A DNA stretch of 64,000 nucleotides from Novosphingobium aquimarinum. GTDB lineage: Bacteria > Pseudomonadota > Alphaproteobacteria > Sphingomonadales > Sphingomonadaceae. The notes below the pieces were generated by a model that made no database searches, was not told the DNA's origin, and saw only the letters and a program-made list of their open reading frames with translations. The stretch spans positions 1 to 64,000 of the forward strand of contig NZ_WRPO01000010.1 of NCBI RefSeq assembly GCF_009746585.1, read 5' to 3'. Shown piece by piece: positions 31,455-57,741 of this stretch. The translations under genes and the position numbers were made by a program. Numbering within the stretch: position 1 is the stretch's first letter; every line of letters begins with the position of its first letter.

Positions 31455-32852
31455 ATGGCTGAATACGACTACGACGTTCTTGTCATCGGTGCTGGCCCCG
31501 GCGGCTATGTCGCGGCGATCCGCGCGGCGCAGCTCGGGCTGAAGACGGCTTGCGCGGAGAGCCGTGAGACGCTGGGTGGCACGTGCCTCAACGTCGGTTG
31601 CATTCCTTCCAAGGCAATGCTGCACGCCACCGAATACTTCGATGCGGCCGCCAATGGCGCGATGGCCAAGATGGGCATCAAGGTGACGCCCGAACTCGAT
31701 CTCGAGACGATGCATGCGCAGCGTCGCGACGCGGTGAAGCAGCTCACCGGCGGCGTCGCCTTCCTGTTCAAGAAGAACAAGGTCGATTGGCTGAACGGTT
31801 TCGCCAAGTTCCAAGACGCGCACACGGTGAAGGTGGGCGACAAGACCGTGACCGCCAAGAACGTGGTGATCGCCACGGGCTCGACAGTGACGCCGCTGGC
31901 CAATGTCGAAATCGATAACGCCAAGGGAATCGTCGTCGATTCCACCGGCGCTCTCGAATTGCCTGCCGTGCCAAAGAAAATGGTCGTGATCGGTGGTGGC
32001 GTGATCGGGCTGGAACTCGGCTCGGTCTGGCGGCGACTCGGCGCCGAAGTGATCGTGGTGGAATTCCTCGATCAGCTGCTCCCCGGCATGGATGGCGAAA
32101 TCCGCAAGGAAGCCGCGAAGATCTTCAAGAAGCAGGGCATGGAACTTCGCCTCGGGATGAAAGTCACCGGCGTGTCGGTGAAGGGCAAGAAGGCGACGCT
32201 CACGATGGAACCGTCCAAGGGCGGTGACAGCGAGACGCTGACGGCCGATTGCGTCCTCGTCTCGATCGGGCGCCGGCCCAATACCGATGGGCTCGGCCTC
32301 GATGCGATCGGGCTCAAGACCAACCAGCGCGGCCAGATCGAGACCGATCACGACTTCTCCACCCGCGTCGATGGCGTGTGGGCGATTGGCGACGTCATTC
32401 CCGGCCCGATGCTGGCGCACAAGGCCGAGGACGAAGGCATCGCGGTGGCCGAGAATATCGCTGGGATGACCGGCATCGTGAATCACGACCTGATCCCCGG
32501 CGTCGTCTACACTCTGCCAGAGATCGCCGGTGTCGGGCTCACCGAGGAAGCCGCCCGGGAAAAAGGCGAAGTCAAAGTCGGCAAGTTCCCGATGCTCGCC
32601 AACTCGCGCGCGAAGACCAATCACGAGCCCGATGGCTTCGTGAAGATCATCGCGGATGCCGAGACCGACCGCGTGCTCGGCGTATGGTGCATCGCCACCG
32701 TCGCCGGCACGATGATCTCGCAGGCGACCCAAGCGATGGAGTTCGGCGCCACCAGCGAAGACATCGCCTATACTTGCCACGCCCACCCGACTCATTCGGA
32801 AGCGATCAAGGAAGCGGCGATGGCGGTCACCGGCAAGCCGATCCACATCTGA
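31455..32852 (+). CDS. lpd: Dihydrolipoyl dehydrogenase (E3)
   Basis: Lpd reoxidises dihydrolipoamide with FAD and NAD. The FAD fold is at the N-terminus (DVLVIGAGPGGYVAAIRAA), the redox disulfide in GGTCLNVGCIPSKAML, the NAD-binding motif in VVIGGGVIGLELGSVWRRLG, and the second FAD contact in VWAIGDVIPGPMLAHKAEDEG is typical. The C-terminal dimer interface has the catalytic His-Glu pair in ATTCHAHPT-like sequence (YTCHAHPTHSEA). The 465-residue length is normal. Its place after sucAB suggests service to the 2-oxoglutarate complex, though E3 is often shared. Confidence 0.96.
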   Translation: MAEYDYDVLVIGAGPGGYVAAIRAAQLGLKTACAESRETLGGTCLNVGCIPSKAMLHATEYFDAAANGAMAKMGIKVTPELDLETMHAQRRDAVKQLTGGVAFLFKKNKVDWLNGFAKFQDAHTVKVGDKTVTAKNVVIATGSTVTPLANVEIDNAKGIVVDSTGALELPAVPKKMVVIGGGVIGLELGSVWRRLGAEVIVVEFLDQLLPGMDGEIRKEAAKIFKKQGMELRLGMKVTGVSVKGKKATLTMEPSKGGDSETLTADCVLVSIGRRPNTDGLGLDAIGLKTNQRGQIETDHDFSTRVDGVWAIGDVIPGPMLAHKAEDEGIAVAENIAGMTGIVNHDLIPGVVYTLPEIAGVGLTEEAAREKGEVKVGKFPMLANSRAKTNHEPDGFVKIIADAETDRVLGVWCIATVAGTMISQATQAMEFGATSEDIAYTCHAHPTHSEAIKEAAMAVTGKPIHI

Positions 32853-32928: not shown

Positions 32929-33543
32929 ATGCCTGTTTCGATCCTGCTTGCCGCGGCTGCGCTAGCGGCTCCCCAGTACAGCGTCGATTTGGACGACTAT
33001 CCGGACAAGGCGCTCGCGATGGAGAAGTCGGCGGCCGTGCTGGCCGACGTGACAGTCACACCCCAAGGCAACATGATCCGGTGCGAGACGATCGACAGTA
33101 CCGGTGATCCCGACCTGGCGCAGCGCATCTGCAAGATCTTCAAGGCCAAGCGCCATCGGCCGGCCCGGTTTTCCGACGGAAAGCCAGCCTGGTTCGTCGA
33201 GCGCGATGTCTACAAGATGTTCCTGCCGGGCACCTCCCCCGCCTCGGCGATCGCAGCGCTGCGCAAGCCCGACGCCATTCTCGAGGTCGCCGCCCTGCCC
33301 CCGGGGATGCAGACGCTGGATGCCAACGTCATCGTCGCCGTCGATGCCGAAGGCCATATCACGGGCTGCGCTCCGGATGCCGGAGACGAAGTCTCGCCCG
33401 TGACTCGAACGGTCTGCGCCAATACCCAAACAGTAACGCAGGACGTCTTTCGCGACGAAAGCGGCAGCGCGGTCCCTTACGTCACGCGGCTGCGGTTTCG
33501 CTTGCAGAAGAAAGACACCACTCTCGCGGCGCCGGCGTCCTGA
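32929..33543 (+). CDS. Exported protein with two TonB-C-like repeats
   Basis: AAGGAG lies six bases before the ATG at 32929. A weak signal peptide (MPVSILLAAAALAAPQ) precedes 190 residues with two copies of a TonB C-terminal-like pattern: VTVTPQGNMIRCETI...ICKIFKAKRHRPARF and VIVAVDAEGHITGCAP...VCANTQ...PYVTRLRFRL. Each has strand, Gly-rich turn, a Cys and a second Cys, suggesting disulfides. In sphingomonads related domains occur in energy-transducer-like proteins of unknown role. There is no transmembrane TonB box, so a true TonB function is unlikely. It follows lpd by 76 bases and overlaps nothing. Confidence 0.55.
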   Translation: MPVSILLAAAALAAPQYSVDLDDYPDKALAMEKSAAVLADVTVTPQGNMIRCETIDSTGDPDLAQRICKIFKAKRHRPARFSDGKPAWFVERDVYKMFLPGTSPASAIAALRKPDAILEVAALPPGMQTLDANVIVAVDAEGHITGCAPDAGDEVSPVTRTVCANTQTVTQDVFRDESGSAVPYVTRLRFRLQKKDTTLAAPAS

Positions 33544-42997: not shown

Positions 42998-43729
42998 TCA
43001 TCGGCCCTCGATCGGGGCCGGCACGAATGCGTCCTCCGCGGCGGCGTCGGGATCGATCGGGAGAATCGCCGGCGGCGTGGCTTCTTCCGGCAATTGCGCC
43101 GGATCTGCGGACTTCGACGGCATCGGCCCTTCGCCGTCTGCTGTCGCATCGGGAGCCGTCATTCCGGTCGCCGTCGGGACCAGCGTGCCGCCAAGGCGGT
43201 CGGCCAATCGGCTGAGTTGATCAGCGAGAACCCCATCGACCGCCGGCGCCATGCGCGCCATGGGCGTGCGCATGTAGCCCGCGACGACATATTCCATCAG
43301 GATCCGAGTAGCGCCGTCTTCGGATTTGAGCTGGAACGTCAGCGTCCCGACCACGGCATCCGACTGCAGCGGCCCGAGAGCACCCGACAAGCGCAGCGCG
43401 CGAGCACGTTCGATGTAGATCACCCGCAGATGCTCGACGCTTCCGAGAGGGGCGGCATTCGGAGATTCCGGATTGCGCAAGATCTCGCACCAGCATCCGC
43501 CGGCGCGCGCATCCAGGGAAAGATTCGCCGCGTCCGCCGAAAACGTGTGCGCCGGGTTCCACCACCGTGAGGGCTCCACCAGGACGTCCCAGGCTTCCTG
43601 CGCAGACACCGGCACTTCGGCAACTTGCCGGATGACAAATCCGCGTTCGGACGCCTCGCTCACGTTCGCGAGGGCGGGAGAAGAGAACGACAGAAAGGCG
43701 AGCAAGGCCGAGAGCGCGCACTTCAACAT
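42998..43729 (-). CDS. Exported SRPBCC-like protein
   Basis: A signal peptide (MLKCALSALLAFLSFSSPALA) precedes a START/SRPBCC-like domain of about 150 residues: VIRQVAEVPVSAQEAWDVLVEPSRWWNPAHTF, a WCEILRN turn, and TLTFQLKSEDGATRILMEYVVAGYM. The Trp/Pro-rich WWNPAHTF segment is typical of the polyketide cyclase-like group. The last 75 residues are disordered, Pro/Ala/Asp-rich. Function is unknown, probably binding of a hydrophobic ligand. It is inserted between adk and rpsM, two genes that are normally adjacent; adk ends 28 bases upstream. Confidence 0.7.
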   Translation of the reverse strand: MLKCALSALLAFLSFSSPALANVSEASERGFVIRQVAEVPVSAQEAWDVLVEPSRWWNPAHTFSADAANLSLDARAGGCWCEILRNPESPNAAPLGSVEHLRVIYIERARALRLSGALGPLQSDAVVGTLTFQLKSEDGATRILMEYVVAGYMRTPMARMAPAVDGVLADQLSRLADRLGGTLVPTATGMTAPDATADGEGPMPSKSADPAQLPEEATPPAILPIDPDAAAEDAFVPAPIEGR

Positions 43730-43757: not shown

Positions 43758-44402
43758 TCAGCCGATGATCGCCTCGATCGCTTCGGTCACCGAATCCATG
43801 TCGGCCATGCCATCGACCCGGCTGACGATACCTTTGGCCTCGTAGAACGGCAGGATCGGAGCCGTCTTGGCGCGATATTCCGCCATCCGGGTCCGAACCG
43901 TCTCTGCGTTATCGTCCGGGCGGCGCTTGAACTCGGTGCCGCCGCACTTGTCGCACGTGCCAGGCAAGCGCGGCTGCTCGAACTTGTCGTGATAGCCCTT
44001 CCCGCACGACGCGCAGGTAAAGCGGCCGGTGATGCGCTCGACCAGCGCGTCCTCGTTGACGTCGAGCTCGATCACGTGATCCAGCGTGCGGCCGCGATCG
44101 GACAGCAGTTTTTCGAGCGCCTGCGCCTGGGCTTCGGTCCGGGGATATCCGTCGAAGATGGCGCCGGATTCCGGCCCCATGGAATCGAGTTCCTCGCCGA
44201 TGATCCCCGAGACGATCTCATCGGATACGAGTTCGCCTCGCTCCATCACCGCCTTGGCCTTCAGCCCGGTCGGCGTTCCTGCCTTGACCGCGGCACGTAG
44301 CATGTCTCCCGTCGAGAGCTGGCGCATACCGCGACGCTCGACAAGTCGCTGCGACTGGGTGCCCTTCCCCGCTCCCGGCGGGCCCAGAAGAATGATGTTC
44401 AC
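43758..44402 (-). CDS. adk: Adenylate kinase
   Basis: Adk balances ATP, ADP and AMP. The P-loop GPPGAGKGTQSQRLVE is at residue 7, followed by STGDMLRAAVKAG, the signature FDGYPRTEAQAQAL, and a long LID domain with four cysteines (CASCGKGYHD and CDKCGGTEF) that should bind zinc, as in gram-positive and some alphaproteobacterial enzymes. The 214-residue length is that of the long form. It is 32 bases after secY, the usual spc-operon order. Confidence 0.97.
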   Translation of the reverse strand: MNIILLGPPGAGKGTQSQRLVERRGMRQLSTGDMLRAAVKAGTPTGLKAKAVMERGELVSDEIVSGIIGEELDSMGPESGAIFDGYPRTEAQAQALEKLLSDRGRTLDHVIELDVNEDALVERITGRFTCASCGKGYHDKFEQPRLPGTCDKCGGTEFKRRPDDNAETVRTRMAEYRAKTAPILPFYEAKGIVSRVDGMADMDSVTEAIEAIIG

Positions 44403-44434
44403 TTAGCCTCGATCCCCCGTGTCTCGACGCGCGC

Positions 44435-45802
44435 CTAGCGCAAACGGCCTTTCAGTTTGGCCTTCTTGATAAGGTCACCATACTGGTGCGCCAGCAGGTG
44501 CGACTGGATTTGCGTGATCGTGTCGACAGTGACGTTGACCACGATCAACAAGCTGGTTCCGCCAAGGAAAAGCAAGGGCAGACCGGTCTGCGAGATAAAG
44601 TATTCCGGTACGACGCACACCAAGGTCAGATAGATCGCGCCGACCACGGTAATCCGCGTGAGGACGTAATCGAGATAGTTGGCGGTGTTCTTGCCGGGAC
44701 GAATCCCGGGAATGAAGCCGCCGTTCTTCTTCAGGTTGTCCGCCGTCTCCTCAGGATTGAAGACGACAGCGGTGTAGAAGAAGCAGAAGAAGATGATGCC
44801 GGCGGCATAGAGCAGCATGTACAGCGGCTTGCCGTGACCCAGGTACTGGTTCAGCGAAACGACGAAGCTGCCAAGCGCGGTATCCGTCGAAAGCGAATTG
44901 CCCGCGAACTGCGTGATCGTCAACGGCAGCAACAGCAGCGAACTGGCGAAGATCGGCGGAATGACGCCTGCCGTGTTGATCTTGAGCGGCAAGTGGCTGC
45001 GATCGGCCTGCATCATCCCGCGCTGGGTGGCGCGCTTGGGATACTGGATCAGCAGCCGCCGTTGCGCTCGCTCCATGAAGCAGATGAAGAGGATCAGCAC
45101 GACGATCAGCGCGATCAGCGACAGGATCAGAAGGCTTCCGGTATCGCCCGCGCTATACTGTGCCATCAGCTGCGAGACGAACGTCGGCATCTGCGCGACG
45201 ATGCCCGCCATGATGATCAGCGAAACGCCGTTGCCGATGCCGCGCGAGGTGATCTGCTCGCCCAGCCAGAGCAGGAACATCGTGCCGCCGACGAGATTGA
45301 TTACGGCGCCCACGCGGAACATGTAACCGGGGCTGACGACCGCCTGCAGGCCGCTCTGCGCGGCGTAGGCTTCGAGGCCGGTGGCGACGAACCACCCCTG
45401 GATCGCGCACAGCAGCACCGTGCCGTAGCGCGTGTACTGATTGAGTTTCTTGCGCCCGGCCTCGCCTTCCTTCTTCAACGCCATCAGCGCGGGATGGAGC
45501 GAGGCGGCAAGCTGTACCACGATAGAGGCGGTGATGTACGGCATCACCCCCAGCGCGATCAGGCTCATCCGCGAGAGACTGCCACCCGAAAAGGTGTTGA
45601 ACAGGTCGAGAATACCGCCCTGAGTCTGGCTGTAGAGCGACTGCAGCACCAGCGGATTGATGCCGGGCAACGGCACGAAGCTCAGAAACCGGAACACGAT
45701 CAGCGCTCCGATCGTGAACCAGATCCGCTTCTTGAGCTCGGTCGCCTTGGAGAAATTGGCCAGGCTCAGGCTGCTGGCAATGTTGTCGGCGCGGGAAGCC
45801 AT
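44435..45802 (-). CDS. secY: Protein translocase subunit SecY
   Basis: SecY is the channel of the general secretion machinery in the inner membrane. Ten hydrophobic segments are visible, starting IWFTIGALIVFRFLSFVPLPG. The pore-plug region (GGILDLFNTFSGGSLSRMS), the segment GIGNGVSLIIMAGI and the cytoplasmic loop C5 (QYPKRATQRGM) are all present. The 455-residue length is typical. It lies between rplO and adk. Two dyads (45830-45868 and 45935-45966) lie in the 192-base gap from rplO. Confidence 0.97.
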   Translation of the reverse strand: MASRADNIASSLSLANFSKATELKKRIWFTIGALIVFRFLSFVPLPGINPLVLQSLYSQTQGGILDLFNTFSGGSLSRMSLIALGVMPYITASIVVQLAASLHPALMALKKEGEAGRKKLNQYTRYGTVLLCAIQGWFVATGLEAYAAQSGLQAVVSPGYMFRVGAVINLVGGTMFLLWLGEQITSRGIGNGVSLIIMAGIVAQMPTFVSQLMAQYSAGDTGSLLILSLIALIVVLILFICFMERAQRRLLIQYPKRATQRGMMQADRSHLPLKINTAGVIPPIFASSLLLLPLTITQFAGNSLSTDTALGSFVVSLNQYLGHGKPLYMLLYAAGIIFFCFFYTAVVFNPEETADNLKKNGGFIPGIRPGKNTANYLDYVLTRITVVGAIYLTLVCVVPEYFISQTGLPLLFLGGTSLLIVVNVTVDTITQIQSHLLAHQYGDLIKKAKLKGRLR

Positions 45803-45829
45803 TACGTCGGGAAAGCCTTCGTTATACGA

Positions 45830-45868
45830 TTCGACAAGGCCTTAACGCCTGTGGCGCGGCTTGTCGAA
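45830..45868 (-). promoter_or_regulatory. Hairpin ahead of secY
   Basis: Nine-base inverted repeat ttcgacaag (45830-45838) with cttgtcgaa (45860-45868), loop 21 bases, about 30 bases ahead of secY on the minus strand. It may influence translation of secY relative to the ribosomal genes; no known element was matched. Confidence 0.35.
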
Positions 45869-45934
45869 CCCGTGAAAGTGGTTGCCAATATAGTTCGTCG
45901 GTCGCCGGGTGAAACCCGTTGTCGCCGGAACGCA

Positions 45935-45966
45935 GAAAGGGCGAAGCGCCTGGCGCCCGCCCTTTC
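45935..45966 (-). terminator. Terminator-like hairpin after rplO
   Basis: Stem gaaagggcg (45935-45943) with cgccctttc (45958-45966), loop 14 bases, about 30 bases past the rplO stop. The T-run is weak, so partial attenuation between rplO and secY is more likely than a full stop. Confidence 0.45.
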
Positions 45967-45994
45967 GTACGATACCGATCAAATCACGGCAGGC

Positions 45995-46477
45995 TCAGGC
46001 CTCGACCGTCTCCTTGACGACGGTCACTTCGACCGAACCGCCGGACTTTTCCACGGCCTCACGAGCGCCCTTGGAGGCACCGGCGACCTTGAAGCTCGCC
46101 TTGGAGGTCAGCTCGCCCTTGCCCAGCAGTCTCACGCCGTGCTTGCCGCCGCGGGCCAGACCGGCCGCCTGCAGCGCCGCCTGATCGATCGTCGAAGAGG
46201 CATCGAGCTTGCCCGCATCGATGGCCTTCTGGATCATGCCCAGGTTCACTTCGGCGTAGTCCTTCGCGAACTTGGTGTTCGAGAAGCCACGCTTCGGGAG
46301 CCGCATGTGCAGCGGCATCTGGCCGCCTTCGAAGCCCTTGACGGCAACGCCCGAACGGCTCTTCTGGCCCTTCTGGCCACGCCCGCCGGTCTTGCCCTTA
46401 CCCGAGCCGATGCCACGGCCTACGCGCATGCGGCGATGACGGGCACCTTCGTTGTCACGGATTTCATTCAGTTTCAT
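45995..46477 (-). CDS. rplO: Ribosomal protein L15
   Basis: L15 is a late-assembly protein of the large subunit. The N-terminal glycine/basic stretch ([30 protein letters not shown], shown in part) is characteristic, followed by [26 protein letters not shown]. The 160-residue protein has a Lys/Ala/Val-rich end. In most bacteria rplO follows rpmD directly; here a lipoprotein gene lies between them. A dyad (GGACC...GGTCC at about 46565-46581) and a second short one precede it. Confidence 0.97.
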
Positions 46478-46587
46478 ATCTGCACTCGCTTTCGCTTTTG
46501 TCGCGCTAATGGGAAGGCGGCCCCTTAAGGAAAAGAGTGACCGGTGTCACCCCCTAATTCCCGTTGGACCGCCCGATGGTCCGGACG

Positions 46588-47757
46588 TCAGTAGCCGGCC
46601 GTACGCACAGAGATGGTGGTCTCACCGGGAACTTCCACTCCGAACGGATTGCGCGCGGCGCGCCAGCGTAGCTGCGCGATACCGATTGCGCAGATTTCCG
46701 CATCGAAGTCCGGCACCGCGGTTCCCGGCTCGAGCCGGCAGGATGTCGGAGCGCCTTTCGCATCGATCTCGAAGGTCACGCGCTGAACGCTTCGTTTTTG
46801 GCGCATCAGCTGCTTCTGGTACTTCGAGCCGATGTCGATCAGCGCCTTGCGATAGGCGAGCTCACTCTTTTCCAGCATGCGCGGCTCCTCGCGCAGTTCC
46901 TCGAAGGTGCCCGGCGCAAGCCTTGGCCGCATTCTCAGAACCGCCGACTGCCATTTCATCGCCCGCGCCAGCTGCAACGGCGATTGCGCATCGGGCATCG
47001 CCCGGCAATTCGTCCCGGTAGGATCCGCCCCGGCTTTGAGCAGATAATCGACCGCAACCGGTTCACGGTACGCAATCGCCCAGGCGAGCGGCGTCATTCC
47101 GAACATGTCGGGCTGGTGAAGCAGAGACGGCTCGCGGCGACGAAGCTGACGCAGCCGCCAGGCATCCCCGCGCCGCGCAGCCTCGGCGGCATCGTATTGC
47201 GTTCGGGGCGCGCCCAGTTTCACGAAACCCGAACCGGTTCGAGTCGGAGTGAGCGAGGGATCGGTCGGCCTGCAGATGTCGCCATAGGGATAGCCAGGAT
47301 CTGCCACGATCTCGCGATTGTATTGCGTCGCGAAACGCTCGAGGTCGGGCCCGGTCTCCCGACCATCCTGCGTCTCGGCGATCATGCCGCGCACGGTCCA
47401 GGCATCGAGCCCGTTCGGCAGCGCGCATTGGACGCCGTATGTCGCGTCGACTTCTTCCGATGCGGCACCGTTCGCGATCAGACGAAAATCCCCTGCCTCG
47501 ACCGCCTCATGCGCAGCTTGGCTAGGATCGAGCTTGCCCGCAGCGAATGCCCTGCGCAGCGCCGCGTCACTCTCGCGATGGGCGGCGATCGCCGCAGGGG
47601 CCAGCAAGGCCTCGTCGCACACCGTCAAGGCCTTGCCCTTTTCGATGCCGCCGTCGCTGACGTTTTCCTCGGTCTGCTCGCATCCCGCCACCACCAGCAG
47701 GCCCACGAGAGCCAGGGTCCCGAGCACAGATCTGCCTGACGGATTCCCGCGAAACAT
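46588..47757 (-). CDS. Lipoprotein with ankyrin-like and TonB-C-like domains
   Basis: A lipobox (LVVAGC) follows a hydrophobic start at the ATG at 47757. Residues about 75-270 contain ankyrin-like helices (RLIANGAASEEVDATYGVQC, FGMTPLAWAIAYREPVAVDYLLKAGADP), and the last 90 a TonB C-terminal-like fold (VTFEIDAKGAPTSCRLEPGTAVPDFDAEICAIGIAQ, abbreviated) with paired cysteines. No such protein belongs to the standard spc operon; it is wedged between rpmD and rplO on the same strand. The function is unknown; its location in the periplasm is inferred. A hairpin after rpmD suggests it is transcribed separately or by read-through. Confidence 0.72.
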   Translation of the reverse strand: MFRGNPSGRSVLGTLALVGLLVVAGCEQTEENVSDGGIEKGKALTVCDEALLAPAAIAAHRESDAALRRAFAAGKLDPSQAAHEAVEAGDFRLIANGAASEEVDATYGVQCALPNGLDAWTVRGMIAETQDGRETGPDLERFATQYNREIVADPGYPYGDICRPTDPSLTPTRTGSGFVKLGAPRTQYDAAEAARRGDAWRLRQLRRREPSLLHQPDMFGMTPLAWAIAYREPVAVDYLLKAGADPTGTNCRAMPDAQSPLQLARAMKWQSAVLRMRPRLAPGTFEELREEPRMLEKSELAYRKALIDIGSKYQKQLMRQKRSVQRVTFEIDAKGAPTSCRLEPGTAVPDFDAEICAIGIAQLRWRAARNPFGVEVPGETTISVRTAGY

Positions 47758-47772
47758 GGCTTCTCTCATGCC

Positions 47773-47805
47773 AAAGGGGCCCCGGCCTTACGACCGGAGC
47801 CCCTT
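47773..47805 (-). terminator. Hairpin after rpmD
   Basis: GC-rich inverted repeat (aaggggccccgg with ccggagcccctt, 47774-47805 approximately) between rpmD and the lipoprotein gene, followed on the minus strand by a short TTTGG. It may end or reduce transcription from the upstream spc block. Confidence 0.6.
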
Positions 47806-47844
47806 GTGATGACCGGCAACCTGATTACCGGCAACCGGCAACGA

Positions 47845-48021
47845 TCAGTCGACGACCGTGACCAGGTGAGGCACCTTGGCGACGGCGCCACGCACCTCGG
47901 CCGTGTCCTCGATCTCGACGACGCGATGCATCTTGCCGAGGCCGAGACCCACGAGGATCTTCTTCTGGCTCTCGGGCCGACGGATCGGCGAACCGATCTG
48001 CTTGAGCTTGATCTTGGCCAT
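47845..48021 (-). CDS. rpmD: Ribosomal protein L30
   Basis: A 58-residue protein too short for most gene-length cut-offs. From the ATG at 48021 it reads [19 protein letters not shown] and continues with [18 protein letters not shown], ending PHLVTVVD. That is the complete L30 fold. It starts five bases after the stop of rpsE, with no gap that could hold another gene, exactly as expected for the spc operon. Confidence 0.96.
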
Positions 48022-48026
48022 CTGGA

Positions 48027-48809
48027 TTACTCCGCAATCGCTTCGGCAGCGGCCTCGGCCTCTACCTCGGTCACACCACCCCGGCCGAGAAGGTCAGCGA
48101 CCTTCTTGCCGCGACGCTGCGCCACCGACTTCGGCGAAGTCTGCGTGGTCAAAGCGTCGAACGTGGCGCGGATCATGTTGTAGGGGTTCGAGGTCCCGAC
48201 CGACTTGGTCACGACGTCCTGAACGCCCAGGCTCTCGAAGACGGCGCGCATCGGACCGCCGGCGATGATGCCGGTACCCGCAGGCGCGGTGCGCACATTC
48301 ACGCGACCGGCACCGAAGTGACCACGGCCATCGTGATGCAGCGTGCGACCTTCCTTGAGCGGAACGCGAACCATCTTCTTCTTGGCCGACGCGGTCGCCT
48401 TGGTGATCGCCTCGGGCACTTCGCGCGCCTTGGCGTGACCGAAGCCGACGCGACCCTTGCCGTCGCCCACGACGACCAGCGCCGCAAAGCCGAAGCGCTT
48501 GCCGCCCTTCACCGTCTTGGAAACGCGGTTGATGTGGACGAGCTTCTCGATCAGCTCCTCGCCATCGTCGTCGCCGCGACGATCGTCGCGACGGCCACGA
48601 CCACGGCCGCCGCCACGGTCATTGCGATCGTTACGACCACGACCACGGCCACCGCCGCCGGGGCCACGACCACCGGGGCCACCGCTATGGCCGCCACCGG
48701 CGTTGCCGCCGGATTCGCGCGCATCCTGCGGCTCGGCGCCTTGCGGGTGCTCCGCGGCGATCGGGTTCTCGGCCAACTGTTCGGCCGTCTGGTTGTTTTC
48801 TTCTGCCAT
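48027..48809 (-). CDS. rpsE: Ribosomal protein S5 with long N-terminal extension
   Basis: S5 controls decoding fidelity at the 30S mRNA entry. The normal core begins near residue 84 ([20 protein letters not shown]) and includes [20 protein letters not shown], and [20 protein letters not shown]. The first 83 or so residues are extra: an acidic start followed by a Gly/Arg/Asp/Asn low-complexity run with [16 protein letters not shown]. At 260 residues it is about 90 longer than the usual S5. A similar extension is known to me in sphingomonad S5. It lies between rplR and rpmD. Confidence 0.95.
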
Positions 48810-48811
48810 GA

Positions 48812-49150
48812 TCAGAACTCCAGCCCGCCTTCGCGGGCGGCATCGGCCAGCGCCTTGACGCGGCCATGATAGAGGAAACCACCGCGGTCGAACACGACGG
48901 TCGTCACGCCGGCCTTCTTGGCAGCCTCGGCAAGCTCCTTGCCGACGCGCGTCGCGGCGTCGGTGTCGGTGCCCTTCCCGCCCAGCGTATTCGCGGCGGC
49001 AAGCGTCCTGCCCTGCAGATCATCGATGATCTGCGCGTAGATGTGCCGGCCGGTGCGGTGCACCGAAAGACGAGGACGGCCAGTGGCCTGCGCGCGCAAC
49101 GAAGTGCGGACGCGCTGGCGACGGCGTTCGAAAAGCGAAAGCTTGGCCAT
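48812..49150 (-). CDS. rplR: Ribosomal protein L18
   Basis: L18 binds 5S rRNA with L5. The 112-residue sequence has the basic N-terminus [19 protein letters not shown] and the conserved blocks [20 protein letters not shown], and [28 protein letters not shown] in shortened form. Its ATG shares one base with the stop of rplF, and it is two bases from rpsE, as in many spc operons. Confidence 0.98.
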
Positions 49151-49683
49151 TACTTCTTCTTCCCTTCCTTGCGGAAGATGTACTCGCCGCGGTACTTGAT
49201 ACCCTTGCCCTTGTAGGGCTCGGGCTTGCGCCAGCGACGAATTTCGGCCGCGACCTGGCCGACCTTCTGCTTGTCGATCCCGGAAATCTCGACGGTCGTG
49301 TTGTCGGGCGTCTTGATCTCGATGCCCTCGGGCACGTCGATGTCGACGTCGTGCGAGTAGCCGAGCTGAAGCTTGAGCTTCTTGCCCTGCGCCGAAGCAC
49401 GATAACCGACGCCGGTGATCTCGAGAACCTTGGTGTAACCCTGGGTCACGCCTTCGATCAGGTTCGAGACGAGCGTGCGCTGCATGCCCCAGTGGCTGCG
49501 CGCCTGCTTGCTGTCGTTCGCGGGATGAACCGAGATCGAACCGTCTTCCAGCTTGTACGAAACGTAGTCGGACAGACCCATCGAAAGCGTGCCCTTGGGC
49601 CCCTTCACCGACAGCGAGCCGTCCTTCATCTCGGCCGTGACCCCACTCGGGATCGAGACCGGCTTCTTACCGATGCGGCTCAT
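49150..49683 (-). CDS. rplF: Ribosomal protein L6
   Basis: L6 lies near the factor-binding site of the large subunit. The 177-residue protein shows two similar domains: [20 protein letters not shown] at the start and, in the second, [23 protein letters not shown], with the signature [16 protein letters not shown] near the end. Its start overlaps the stop of rpsH by one base. Confidence 0.98.
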
Positions 49684-50078
49684 CAGAACACCTCCGCGAG
49701 CACTTCGCCGCCCACGTTCTGCGAGCGGGCCTCGGCATCCGAGAGCACGCCGCGCGGCGTCGAAACGATGGTGATGCCAAGGCCGTTGCGCACGATCGGC
49801 AGTTCCTTGGAACCCGAATAAACGCGGCGGCCGGGCTTCGAAACGCGGGCAACATGCTTGATCGCAGGCTCGCCTTCGAAATACTTCAGTTCGATCCGCA
49901 GCTGCGGGTGCTTGCCCGAAGCATCCTCGGTGTAGCCACGAATGTAGCCTTCACGCTGGAGCACTTCGAGAACGCGGGTACGCAGCTTCGACGCCGGCGA
50001 AAGGACCGAGTCCTTCTTCGCCTGCTGGCCGTTGCGGATACGGGTGAGCATGTCACCCAGGGGATCGGTCATAGCCAT
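49683..50078 (-). CDS. rpsH: Ribosomal protein S8
   Basis: S8 is a primary 16S rRNA binder and, in E. coli, the translational repressor of the spc operon. The 131-residue sequence starts [22 protein letters not shown] and has [20 protein letters not shown] and the C-terminal [26 protein letters not shown] in shortened form. It lies 11 bases after rpsN and overlaps rplF by one base. Confidence 0.98.
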
Positions 50079-50089
50079 CTGCTAATTCC

Positions 50090-50395
50090 TTACCAGCTCG
50101 ACTTGGTGACGCCGGGGATCATGCCCTTGTTGGCAAGATCACGCAGCTCGATACGGCACAGGCCGAACTTGCGGTAGTAACCGCGGGGGCGGCCGGTCGT
50201 GGCGCAGCGGTTGCGCACGCGCGTCGGGTTCCCGTTGCGGGGAATCTCGGCCAGCTTGAGGCGGGCAATCAGCCGCTCGGTTTCGTCAAGCGAGGTATCG
50301 TCGGCAATCGCCTTCAGACGCTCGTACTTGCCTGCATACTTCTTCACGAGCTTCTTGCGACGCTCATTCTTGTTTACGGAACTCAGTTTCGCCAT
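50090..50395 (-). CDS. rpsN: Ribosomal protein S14 (zinc-free form)
   Basis: The 101-residue S14 of the long, zinc-independent class: [27 protein letters not shown] at the start (abbreviated), a central helical region, and the conserved [20 protein letters not shown]. It has two cysteines but not the four-Cys zinc ribbon of short S14. It lies between rplE and rpsH. Confidence 0.98.
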
Positions 50396-50437
50396 GGACT
50401 TAAGCTCTCTTTCGCGTGTTCAATTCAAGGCAGCGGC

Positions 50438-51019
50438 TTACGCCGCTTCCTTCTGTTCCGCCTCTTCGACGGGGAACGGGAAGCCGAACAACCGGAGCAG
50501 TTCGCGCGCTTCCTCGTCAGTCTTGGCCGTGGTGGTCACGATGATGTCCATGCCACGAACCTTCTCGATCCTGTCGTAGCTGATCTCCGGAAAGATGATC
50601 TGCTCCTTCAGGCCCATCGCATAGTTGCCGCGGCCGTCGAACGACTTCGGGTTAAGACCACGAAAGTCACGGATGCGGGGCATCGCGATGGTCACCAGGC
50701 GATCGAGGAATTCGTACATGCGCTCACGACGGAGCGTCACCTTGCAGCCGATCGGCATGCCTTCACGCAGCTTGAACTGCGCGATCGACTTGCGGGCCTT
50801 GGTGATCACCGGCTTCTGGCCGGCAATCAGCTGCATTTCCTCGGCAGCGATCTGGACCTTCTTCTTGTCCTGGCTCGCTTCGCCAACGCCCATGTTGAGC
50901 GTGATCTTCTCGATCCGCGGGACCATCATGTGGTTGGCGTAACCGAACTTCTCGGTCATCGCCTTGATGATCTCGTCGTCGTACTTCGAGCGCAGACGCG
51001 GAGTATAGGAATCAGCCAT
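50438..51019 (-). CDS. rplE: Ribosomal protein L5
   Basis: L5 binds 5S rRNA and contacts S13 and tRNA. The 193-residue protein contains the family signature [47 protein letters not shown], and the motif [18 protein letters not shown]. Its ATG lies eight bases within the end of rplX, so the two overlap slightly, as is common in this operon. Confidence 0.98.
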
Positions 51020-51335
51020 CGATGGTCTCCCCGGACTTTACGGCCACACGGACCTTCTTGCCGTCCTTGGTTTCGAAGCGAACGCGGGTCGGCTTGCCGT
51101 CCTTGGGATCGGCAACCGAAACCTTGCTGATCGCCATCGGCGCCGGAACGCGGTCGATGCCGCCCTGCGGGTTCGCCTGGGTCGGCTTGCGGTGACGAGT
51201 GGCTACGTTGACACCTTCGACCAGGACCTTGCCTTCTTTCGGCATGACCTGAAGAACAGTGCCGGTGCGGCCCTTGTCCTTGCCCGAACGGACGACGACG
51301 TTGTCACCCTTCTTGATCTTCGCGGCAGCCATCAC
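51012..51335 (-). CDS. rplX: Ribosomal protein L24
   Basis: L24 starts assembly of the large subunit. The 107-residue protein has a KOW motif at the N-terminus ([20 protein letters not shown]) and the conserved [21 protein letters not shown]. It overlaps rplE at its end and rplN at its start, each by a few bases. The first two Met codons are adjacent; either could start translation. Confidence 0.98.
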
Positions 51336-51700
51336 AGCACCTCCGGAGCGAGCGAGATGATCTTCATGAAGCCACGGCCACGCAGTTCGCGGACCACGGG
51401 GCCGAAGATACGCGTGCCGATCGGTTCCTCATTCTTGTTGATGAGGACCGCGGCGTTCGTGTCGAAGCGGATCACGCTGCCGTCGGGACGACGCACGTCC
51501 TTACGGGTGCGAACGATCACGGCGCGGTGCACGTCGCCCTTCTTCACGCGAGCACGAGGCTGCGCTTCCTTCACCGACACCACGATGATGTCGCCGACGC
51601 CCGCGGTACGACGCTTAGAGCCACCCAGCACCTTGATGCACTGGACGCGCTTCGCGCCGCTGTTGTCCGCGACGTCGAGATTGGATTGCATCTGGATCAT
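51332..51700 (-). CDS. rplN: Ribosomal protein L14
   Basis: L14 sits at the subunit interface. The 122-residue protein starts [22 protein letters not shown] and includes [21 protein letters not shown] and [24 protein letters not shown]. It is the first gene of the spc block; a 56-base gap separates it from rpsQ. No separate spc promoter was confidently found in that gap. Confidence 0.98.
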
Positions 51701-57390: not shown

Positions 57391-57741
57391 TCAGCGCTTG
57401 GCTTTCTTGCCGAGCGCCGCGTTGAAATCGGGTTCCTTGTTCGAAACCCACGCGACGAACTTCTCGATCCGGGGATCGAGCCGAAGCAAGCCGCCATCGA
57501 GGCCGTAGCGCTGCAGCTCGGAATTGGTGAACGTGGTGATGACCATGTTCTGGCAGATCGGATGCATCGGCACCGTGTCGCGCCCTCCCCGGCTCTTGGG
57601 AACCGGGTGATGCCAGACCACAGTTTCGCCACAAGGCCTCCCACACAGCCAGCAGTCTGGCGGCGGGGATGCTTCCTCCTCGCTGTCCGGTTCGTCGTAG
57701 ACGTCCTCGCGCGGGCCGTGCTTGCCGTACTTGCGTGCCAT
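57391..57741 (-). CDS. HNH-like protein, probably inactive
   Basis: A 116-residue protein with the frame of an HNH nuclease: CWLCGRPCG as the first zinc pair, VVWHHPVPKSRGGRDTVP with the catalytic His-His of the motif start, then MHPICQNMVITTFTN. In the family as I know it, the last part reads ICH...IH, with the two His residues that bind metal and complete the HNH active site. Here those positions are Gln and Ile. If that alignment is right, the nuclease is dead, and the protein may bind nucleic acid only. It sits between tuf and rpsJ, after the tuf terminator. A second role cannot be inferred. Confidence 0.75.
   Translation of the reverse strand: MARKYGKHGPREDVYDEPDSEEEASPPPDCWLCGRPCGETVVWHHPVPKSRGGRDTVPMHPICQNMVITTFTNSELQRYGLDGGLLRLDPRIEKFVAWVSNKEPDFNAALGKKAKR

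Follow-up and report, generated by a model that had tools for sequence, protein, structure and literature searches.

The spc operon counts among the most conserved strings of ribosomal genes in bacteria, and its gene order is regarded as all but invariable. Why, then, does a gene for a predicted envelope lipoprotein stand inside it, between rpmD and rplO, in Novosphingobium aquimarinum? We addressed this question in a stretch of 64,000 nucleotides from this species (contig NZ_WRPO01000010.1, positions 1 to 64,000; hereafter the window) and by comparison with its relatives.

A preliminary description of the window had placed the gene between rpmD and rplO; this was confirmed, on the same strand and with exact coordinates. 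The gene (46588–47757, minus strand) is the only one in the 1,367-nt gap between rpmD (47845–48021, minus), the upstream edge, and rplO (45995–46477, minus), the downstream edge. It begins with an ATG, ends with the stop codon at 46588–46590 and encodes 389 amino acids comprising a signal peptide with a lipobox, an N-terminal region, ankyrin repeats and a TonB-C-like domain; the longest mechanical start of its open reading frame is an in-frame ATG at 47769, four codons upstream. Distances were anchored upstream on rpsE (48027–48809, minus), and secY (44435–45802, minus) keeps a constant position after rplO.

We favour, with a probability of about 0.7, the reading that the rpmD-rplO junction is a variable slot framed by a terminator-like and a promoter-like element, into which the lipoprotein gene was gained once and then kept. 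The flanks of such a slot would be self-sufficient and its contents swapped by recombination; the lipoprotein would bind partners in the periplasm, and its gene would be transcribed by read-through in the window.

Variation at the rpmD-rplO junction

The preliminary description had called rpmD and rplO almost always adjacent and had suggested a look at gene order in related genomes. In all 24 genomes from the other families of the order the two genes are adjacent, with 198–310 bp between rpsE and rplO; here they are interrupted. Within the genus, the distance from rpsE to rplO was at least 900 bp in 23 of the 31 genomes with both genes on one contig, the window included, and these long loci divide into nine with the lipoprotein gene and 14 without it. 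Distances of at least 900 bp also occurred in 27 of 114 genomes of a family sample (taken to be Sphingomonadaceae; both anchors were readable in 114 of 249), representing the same genus and 13 of 47 other genera. The content between the hairpin and the rplO promoter-like sequence described below ranges from 0 to 6.3 kb, and the cargo changes.

As a control, 26 junctions within the cluster were measured, each in 10 to 20 genomes of the genus and again with the window included. Lengths of at least 600 bp were reached at rpmD-rplO (14/20), adk-rpsM (13/15) and rpoA-rplQ (2/10), and never at the other 23 junctions. At adk-rpsM the occupant seems in most cases to be one and the same stable gene: homologues of the window's gene at this place were found in 18 of 20 same-genus stretches, counted per stretch (window included) and not by exact position. 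This gene (42998–43729, minus) encodes 243 amino acids, with a signal peptide seen by eye and a Polyketide_cyc2 score of 13.9 bits, below the cut-off. Between tuf and rpsJ the window also encodes a small HNH-like protein (57391–57741, minus; 12.8 bits, below the cut-off). Nothing in the other 19 stretches matched it; some of these possibly end before that junction.

One pair of genomes places the boundaries of the variable part. In G015 and G027, rpmD is 98% identical at the DNA level, and the gap measures 292 bp and is unfilled in the former, versus 1116 bp and a gene in the latter. Their sequences cease to be alike shortly after the hairpin and agree again from no more than 8 nt ahead of the GTGACA of the rplO promoter-like sequence, so that in this pair the variable part lies between the terminator-like and promoter-like elements.

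Integration hotspots between core genes have the same flanks and different cargo in different genomes. The junction resembles them in its constant core flanks and unlike cargo across genomes, in the sharp boundaries and the unfilled site of a close relative seen in G015 and G027, and in standing out from its neighbours, 23 of the 26 junctions never reaching 600 bp. It differs from them in that the cargo is small, a single gene or a few, and in that the site falls within a ribosomal protein cluster. In the part of the cargo that was scanned, no protein had a Pfam match to an integrase or transposase. Because of this last result, we infer that cargo may be swapped by homologous recombination through the conserved flanking ribosomal genes. 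An Rfam search for tRNAs, which covered the window alone, found one, more than 40 kb from the slot.

Elements framing the slot

Comparison across genomes shows that, in the family sampled, the spc operon often runs from rpmD through a terminator-like hairpin, a variable stretch, a promoter-like sequence and a conserved leader to rplO. The variable stretch is a slot: it can be empty or contain a single gene or a few, which differ from species to species and lie on either strand.

The hairpin after rpmD, ahead of the lipoprotein gene, had been noted in the preliminary description and was borne out: the 94 nt at 47757–47850 fold at −50.6 kcal/mol (z −4.9), and 0 of 200 shuffles were as stable. 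The terminator-like hairpin itself (47774–47805, minus) has a 14-bp stem, a GTAA loop and a short U run. Three T follow it, and 16 nt separate its end from the lipoprotein ATG. A strict terminator scan of 44000–51500 omits this hairpin, which has too few T in its tail, and reports eight terminator-like sites against 6.2 (sd 2.7) in shuffles, that is, the shuffle rate. A sigma-70 consensus scan of the same interval returned no promoter-like site (shuffles 1.2).

We then counted hairpin and promoter patterns that were fixed after the sequences had been read and that are looser than, or different from, those of the strict scans. Judged by the looser criterion, rpmD is followed by a T-tailed hairpin in 57 of the 60 gaps that span at least 120 bp, most of them chosen for their length, in 5 of 7 gaps of 61–119 bp, and in neither of the two shorter gaps nor of the two outgroups. 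Ahead of rplO, (G/T)TGAC(A/T) followed after 15–17 nt by (C/T)TA was present in 42 of the 60 long gaps. It turned up in 5 of 1420 shuffles, which preserve base composition only, and in none of the 11 gaps that measure up to 100 bp. The window's version (46523–46550, minus) consists of GTGACA, 16 nt and TTAAGG. Rfam gave nothing in 46400–47900 up to an E-value of 1. To judge from these sequence patterns, a stop signal and a new promoter appear to divide the conserved ribosomal string in Novosphingobium and in species related to it. The slot would tolerate cargo because the flanking transcription units would be self-sufficient on both sides.

A conserved 5′ leader of 30 nt (46478–46507, minus) precedes rplO and contains a small stem with an inner GCGAAAGC hairpin. 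Across the family loci that were read, the leader, AGCGCGAC..AAAGCGAAAGCGAGTGC, hardly varies; some genera have additional stems. Changes on both sides were seen in two of six pairs (4 of 90 cells) among 15 chosen sequences, and the count of pair types was not above that of shuffles. The text of an account of 20 ribosomal leaders does not mention rplO (PMC7247131), and the element is possibly an unreported ribosomal leader.

Insertions of small numbers of genes into the conserved ribosomal cluster are known from Gammaproteobacteria and Bacilli in a study that counted 163 alterations, with 75 of 115 rearrangements leaving operons intact, and whose main text does not include rpmD and rplO (Brandis 2021, PMC8046335). 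Judged by that text, the likeness is that a few genes are inserted into a conserved cluster; the difference is that here a single spc junction holds unlike genes in many species, between terminator-like and promoter-like elements. We found no report of the rpmD-rplO slot among the literature matches listed, a body of text with subscription journals largely outside its coverage. What would be new is an integration site between core genes that lies within the spc operon, bounded by terminator-like and promoter-like elements. Its occurrence across many genera of one family suggests how an essential operon can come to be split, the break then serving to receive new genes. The slot would lend itself to studies of how genes are gained through recombination across essential flanking genes, and is possibly usable as a neutral insertion site in sphingomonads.

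Genes found in place of the lipoprotein

Forty-one filled loci lack the lipoprotein gene, 14 from the own-genus sample and 27 from the family sample (two of the 27 also belong to the genus). Enzyme classes typical of surface glycans, with acyltransferase-3 included, were found in 24 of the 41. An Acyl_transf_3 gene is present in 17 loci, 12 recognised by Pfam and five by similarity to those (one of the five is a short ORF); several of the 17 are related by descent and do not count as separate gains. Seven further loci hold a group-1 glycosyltransferase, a Wzy-like polymerase, a Stf0 sulphotransferase, an FkbM methyltransferase or a GDSL hydrolase, assigned by Pfam or by similarity to a protein that is Pfam-matched or near the cut-off. 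Thirteen own-genus genomes contain 88 Acyl_transf_3 matches in total; at about seven per genome, few would be expected at any one junction. From the enzyme classes, it appears probable that these cargo enzymes act on surface glycans.

The other 17 loci hold, among others, an MCRA-family gene, RTX and bacteriophytochrome genes, kinase-like genes, methyltransferases, a ThsB-like TIR gene or nothing recognised, and they include five with ORFs outside the scan (G095, G137, G177, G197 and G202). A membrane protein among the cargo that by eye resembles a GT-C glycosyltransferase had no Pfam match. Cargo genes occur on both strands. The ThsB-like TIR gene lies in the slot of genome G289 (L068:1811-2533, minus; PADLOC E-value 4.9e-119).

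Another reading would make the slot, in Sphingomonadaceae, a dedicated site of surface variation. The terminator-promoter frame and the flanking genes, acting as recombination arms, would allow O-acyltransferases, glycosyltransferases, polymerases, sulphotransferases and defence genes to be exchanged between species as single-gene traits of the surface or of phage resistance. The lipoprotein would be one of these traits, now fixed, and would perhaps mimic TonB and shield TonB-dependent receptors. We put this forward tentatively and regard it as rather doubtful.

Transcription of the lipoprotein gene

The preliminary description had proposed that the position of the gene would link its output to growth rate. 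This would be expected if the lipoprotein gene were a true member of the spc operon, its place coupling envelope output to ribosome synthesis and growth, a reading that we consider unlikely. Its long retention is consistent with membership, and so is its orientation: as far as the contigs reach, it shares the strand of rpmD and rplO in every one of the 29 Novosphingobium-type loci. Evidence against both membership and a general coupling comes from a candidate promoter element, TGTGCTA(T/A)(G/T)C, which was first seen by eye and then counted: 28 of 29 homologues have it, 51–156 nt upstream of the point where the match begins (28 of 30 with the window; 33 of 3000 shuffles). The terminator-like hairpin after rpmD (57/60 long gaps), the promoter-like sequence before rplO (42/60) and the opposite orientation of some other cargo argue in the same direction. 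An earlier, narrower pattern was found before the lipoprotein gene in 18 of 30 regions and in 42 of 1500 shuffles. We also considered a promoter of the rplO type before the lipoprotein gene and rejected it: a matrix trained on the rplO sequences scored at best 5.6 in 29 regions (28 loci and the window), compared to a lowest score of 15.1 and a median of 27.2 in training.

Features of the window fit the membership reading. The TGTGCTA(T/A)(G/T)C element is missing there and in the sister locus L091, and the window's start codon is too close to the hairpin for a promoter to intervene. Because only 16 nt separate hairpin and gene, the U run is short and no own element is present, read-through from the spc operon, and with it a partial coupling, is possible in the window; the omission of this hairpin by the strict terminator scan fits as well. 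Returning to the slot reading, the simplest account is that most relatives transcribe the lipoprotein gene separately, from a putative promoter of its own, and that the lineage of the window depends on read-through of a weak rpmD terminator. A partial coupling to growth rate thus stays plausible for the window and L091 and is not supported in general.

Distribution and descent of the lipoprotein gene

Homologues over most of the protein were found in 9 of 36 same-genus genomes, in all nine after rpmD. Three others of the genus (G009, G011 and G030) match weakly over the C-terminal domain alone and were excluded from the carriers. No match was found in the 24 genomes of other families in the order. 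A search of 397 family genomes, in which at most four candidates were scored per genome, gave matches at an E-value of 1e-10 in four: the window, one more genome of the genus and two weak matches in other genera. Scanning named genomes with two conserved peptides yielded 33 loci, 29 of which are Novosphingobium, including one labelled Sphingomonas sp. IC081. Every one of the 29 has the gene in the rpmD-rplO interval, again as far as the contigs reach (the rpmD side is off the contig in L106 and the rplO side in L098).

We placed the gene on a tree of six ribosomal proteins, a quick tree in which about half of the rows have less than half of the columns. All 39 rows that carry the gene fall into a single clade (SH-aLRT 95), which includes no row without it, and the tree needs a single change of the trait. 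The tree supports a single entry of the gene into the slot, in the ancestor of one Novosphingobium clade, followed by vertical inheritance. Because 29 of the 39 gene-bearing rows were found by searching for the gene itself, and some are the same strains as our sampled genomes, retention is tested by the nine sampled relatives, which stand beside the window and are all carriers. Absence of the gene from near relatives, which in the preliminary description would have counted against its proposal, does not occur: all 29 loci and all nine sampled genomes of the clade carry it. Values of dN/dS were 0.05–0.14 in 12 of 14 pairs and 0.28 and 0.445 in the other two, the highest being that of the window and its nearest relative, L091; these ratios indicate that the gene is under purifying selection.

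The four loci outside Novosphingobium bear on a further reading, in which the lipoprotein family is functionally tied to ribosomal clusters and has moved between ribosomal junctions, and is not ordinary cargo. Two of the four homologues are near ribosomal genes, which would be unexpected for chance cargo: in L121 (Sphingopyxis) the gene directly follows rplQ, and in L123 (a Brevundimonas MAG) a match lies beyond adk, adjoining a proline-rich TonB-like gene named by eye. However, the L123 match is partial, and the other two loci have no ribosomal gene in the stretch read: L122 (a Caulobacteraceae MAG) has two tandem copies beside a malic-enzyme-like gene, and L120 (a marine MAG) has its homologue beside a recA-like gene (both neighbours named by eye). 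The same slot is moreover filled by other genes in other genera. We judge a functional tie to ribosomal clusters to be improbable and retain the single gain into a variable slot.

Predicted structure and role of the lipoprotein

On the translation of the gene, a signal peptide and lipobox (LVVAGC) were read by eye up to Cys26 (47680–47757, minus). Cys26 is nearly invariant in an alignment of 10 rows, one of which ended short there, and all 10 family sequences have a lipobox with a cysteine after the signal peptide, again read by eye. The alignment of 10 shows no variation at cysteines 47, 111, 162, 251, 340 and 356, which is consistent with an oxidising compartment. The N-terminal part of the protein was poorly modelled.

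The preliminary description had named the protein for ankyrin repeats and a TonB-C domain. Both folds are backed by models, and both sequence scores lie under the curated cut-offs. In an AlphaFold2 model, residues 187–289 (46891–47199, minus) match ankyrin structures, the first row, tied with many, being 5d66_A of Acinetobacter baumannii (Z 14.3, rmsd 2.1 over 92 residues). The Ank_2 score of the window protein is 18.7 bits, below the Pfam cut-off of 27.3, and all 10 family members match Ank_2 at E-values up to 1 (best 8.2e-05). Since ankyrin chains filled the structure comparison of the whole model, we modelled the C-terminal domain alone (residues 300–389; pLDDT 89.7), from 16 homologues. 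Its TonB-C-like part comprises residues 314–389 (46591–46818, minus). The best matches are TonB C-terminal domains, led by 6i97_D (Z 6.9, rmsd 3.0 over 82 residues, where a Z below 8 could by itself reflect merely a common arrangement), and TonB-type or TolA domains make up 18 of the 19 best rows; Foldseek E-values were weak (best 0.039). The window protein has no PF03544 match and scores 14.8 bits with TIGR01352, below the cut-off of 27.1; four of the 10 family members match PF03544 weakly (best E-value 0.0065). None of the Pfam and NCBIfam families extends over the full length of the protein.

The gene could also be read as a spurious ORF, or one in decay, within an intergenic region that has expanded. 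For this one might cite the lack of any Pfam domain above cut-off in the window protein and the dN/dS of 0.445 against the nearest relative. The reading is hardly credible, being already contradicted by the low dN/dS of 12 of 14 pairs, by full-length homologues with six invariant cysteines and by confident models of two domains.

Energy-transducing TonB has an N-terminal membrane helix and a proline-rich span. The C-terminal domain of the lipoprotein has the same fold as TonB C-terminal domains, with Z-scores up to 6.9; the protein differs from energy-transducing TonB in having a lipobox and ankyrin repeats and in lacking the membrane helix and the proline-rich span, which was not seen by eye in the aligned sequences. 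We do not call it a TonB, because it stays below the sequence cut-off and lacks the membrane-anchor features. It shares with bacterial ankyrin-repeat proteins the region modelled as ankyrin repeats and differs from them in that this is joined to a lipobox and a TonB-C-like domain. It gave no match to PADLOC anti-phage defence models at an E-value of 0.001, and none in the plasmid and phage collections. The product is predicted to be an envelope lipoprotein that combines ankyrin repeats with a TonB-C-like fold, and its putative role is most likely to bind partners in the periplasm. It would be anchored to an envelope membrane, and its ankyrin repeats and TonB-C-like domain might bind periplasmic partner proteins, such as receptors with a TonB box.

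The preliminary description had also pointed to a second gene with TonB-C-like repeats (32929–33543, plus), and this was upheld. A TonB_C domain scores 30.1 bits, above the cut-off of 24.6, and a second, weaker TonB-C-like unit was found by pairwise comparison (E-value 0.057). The gene follows an ORF that by eye is lipoamide-dehydrogenase-like (31455–32852).
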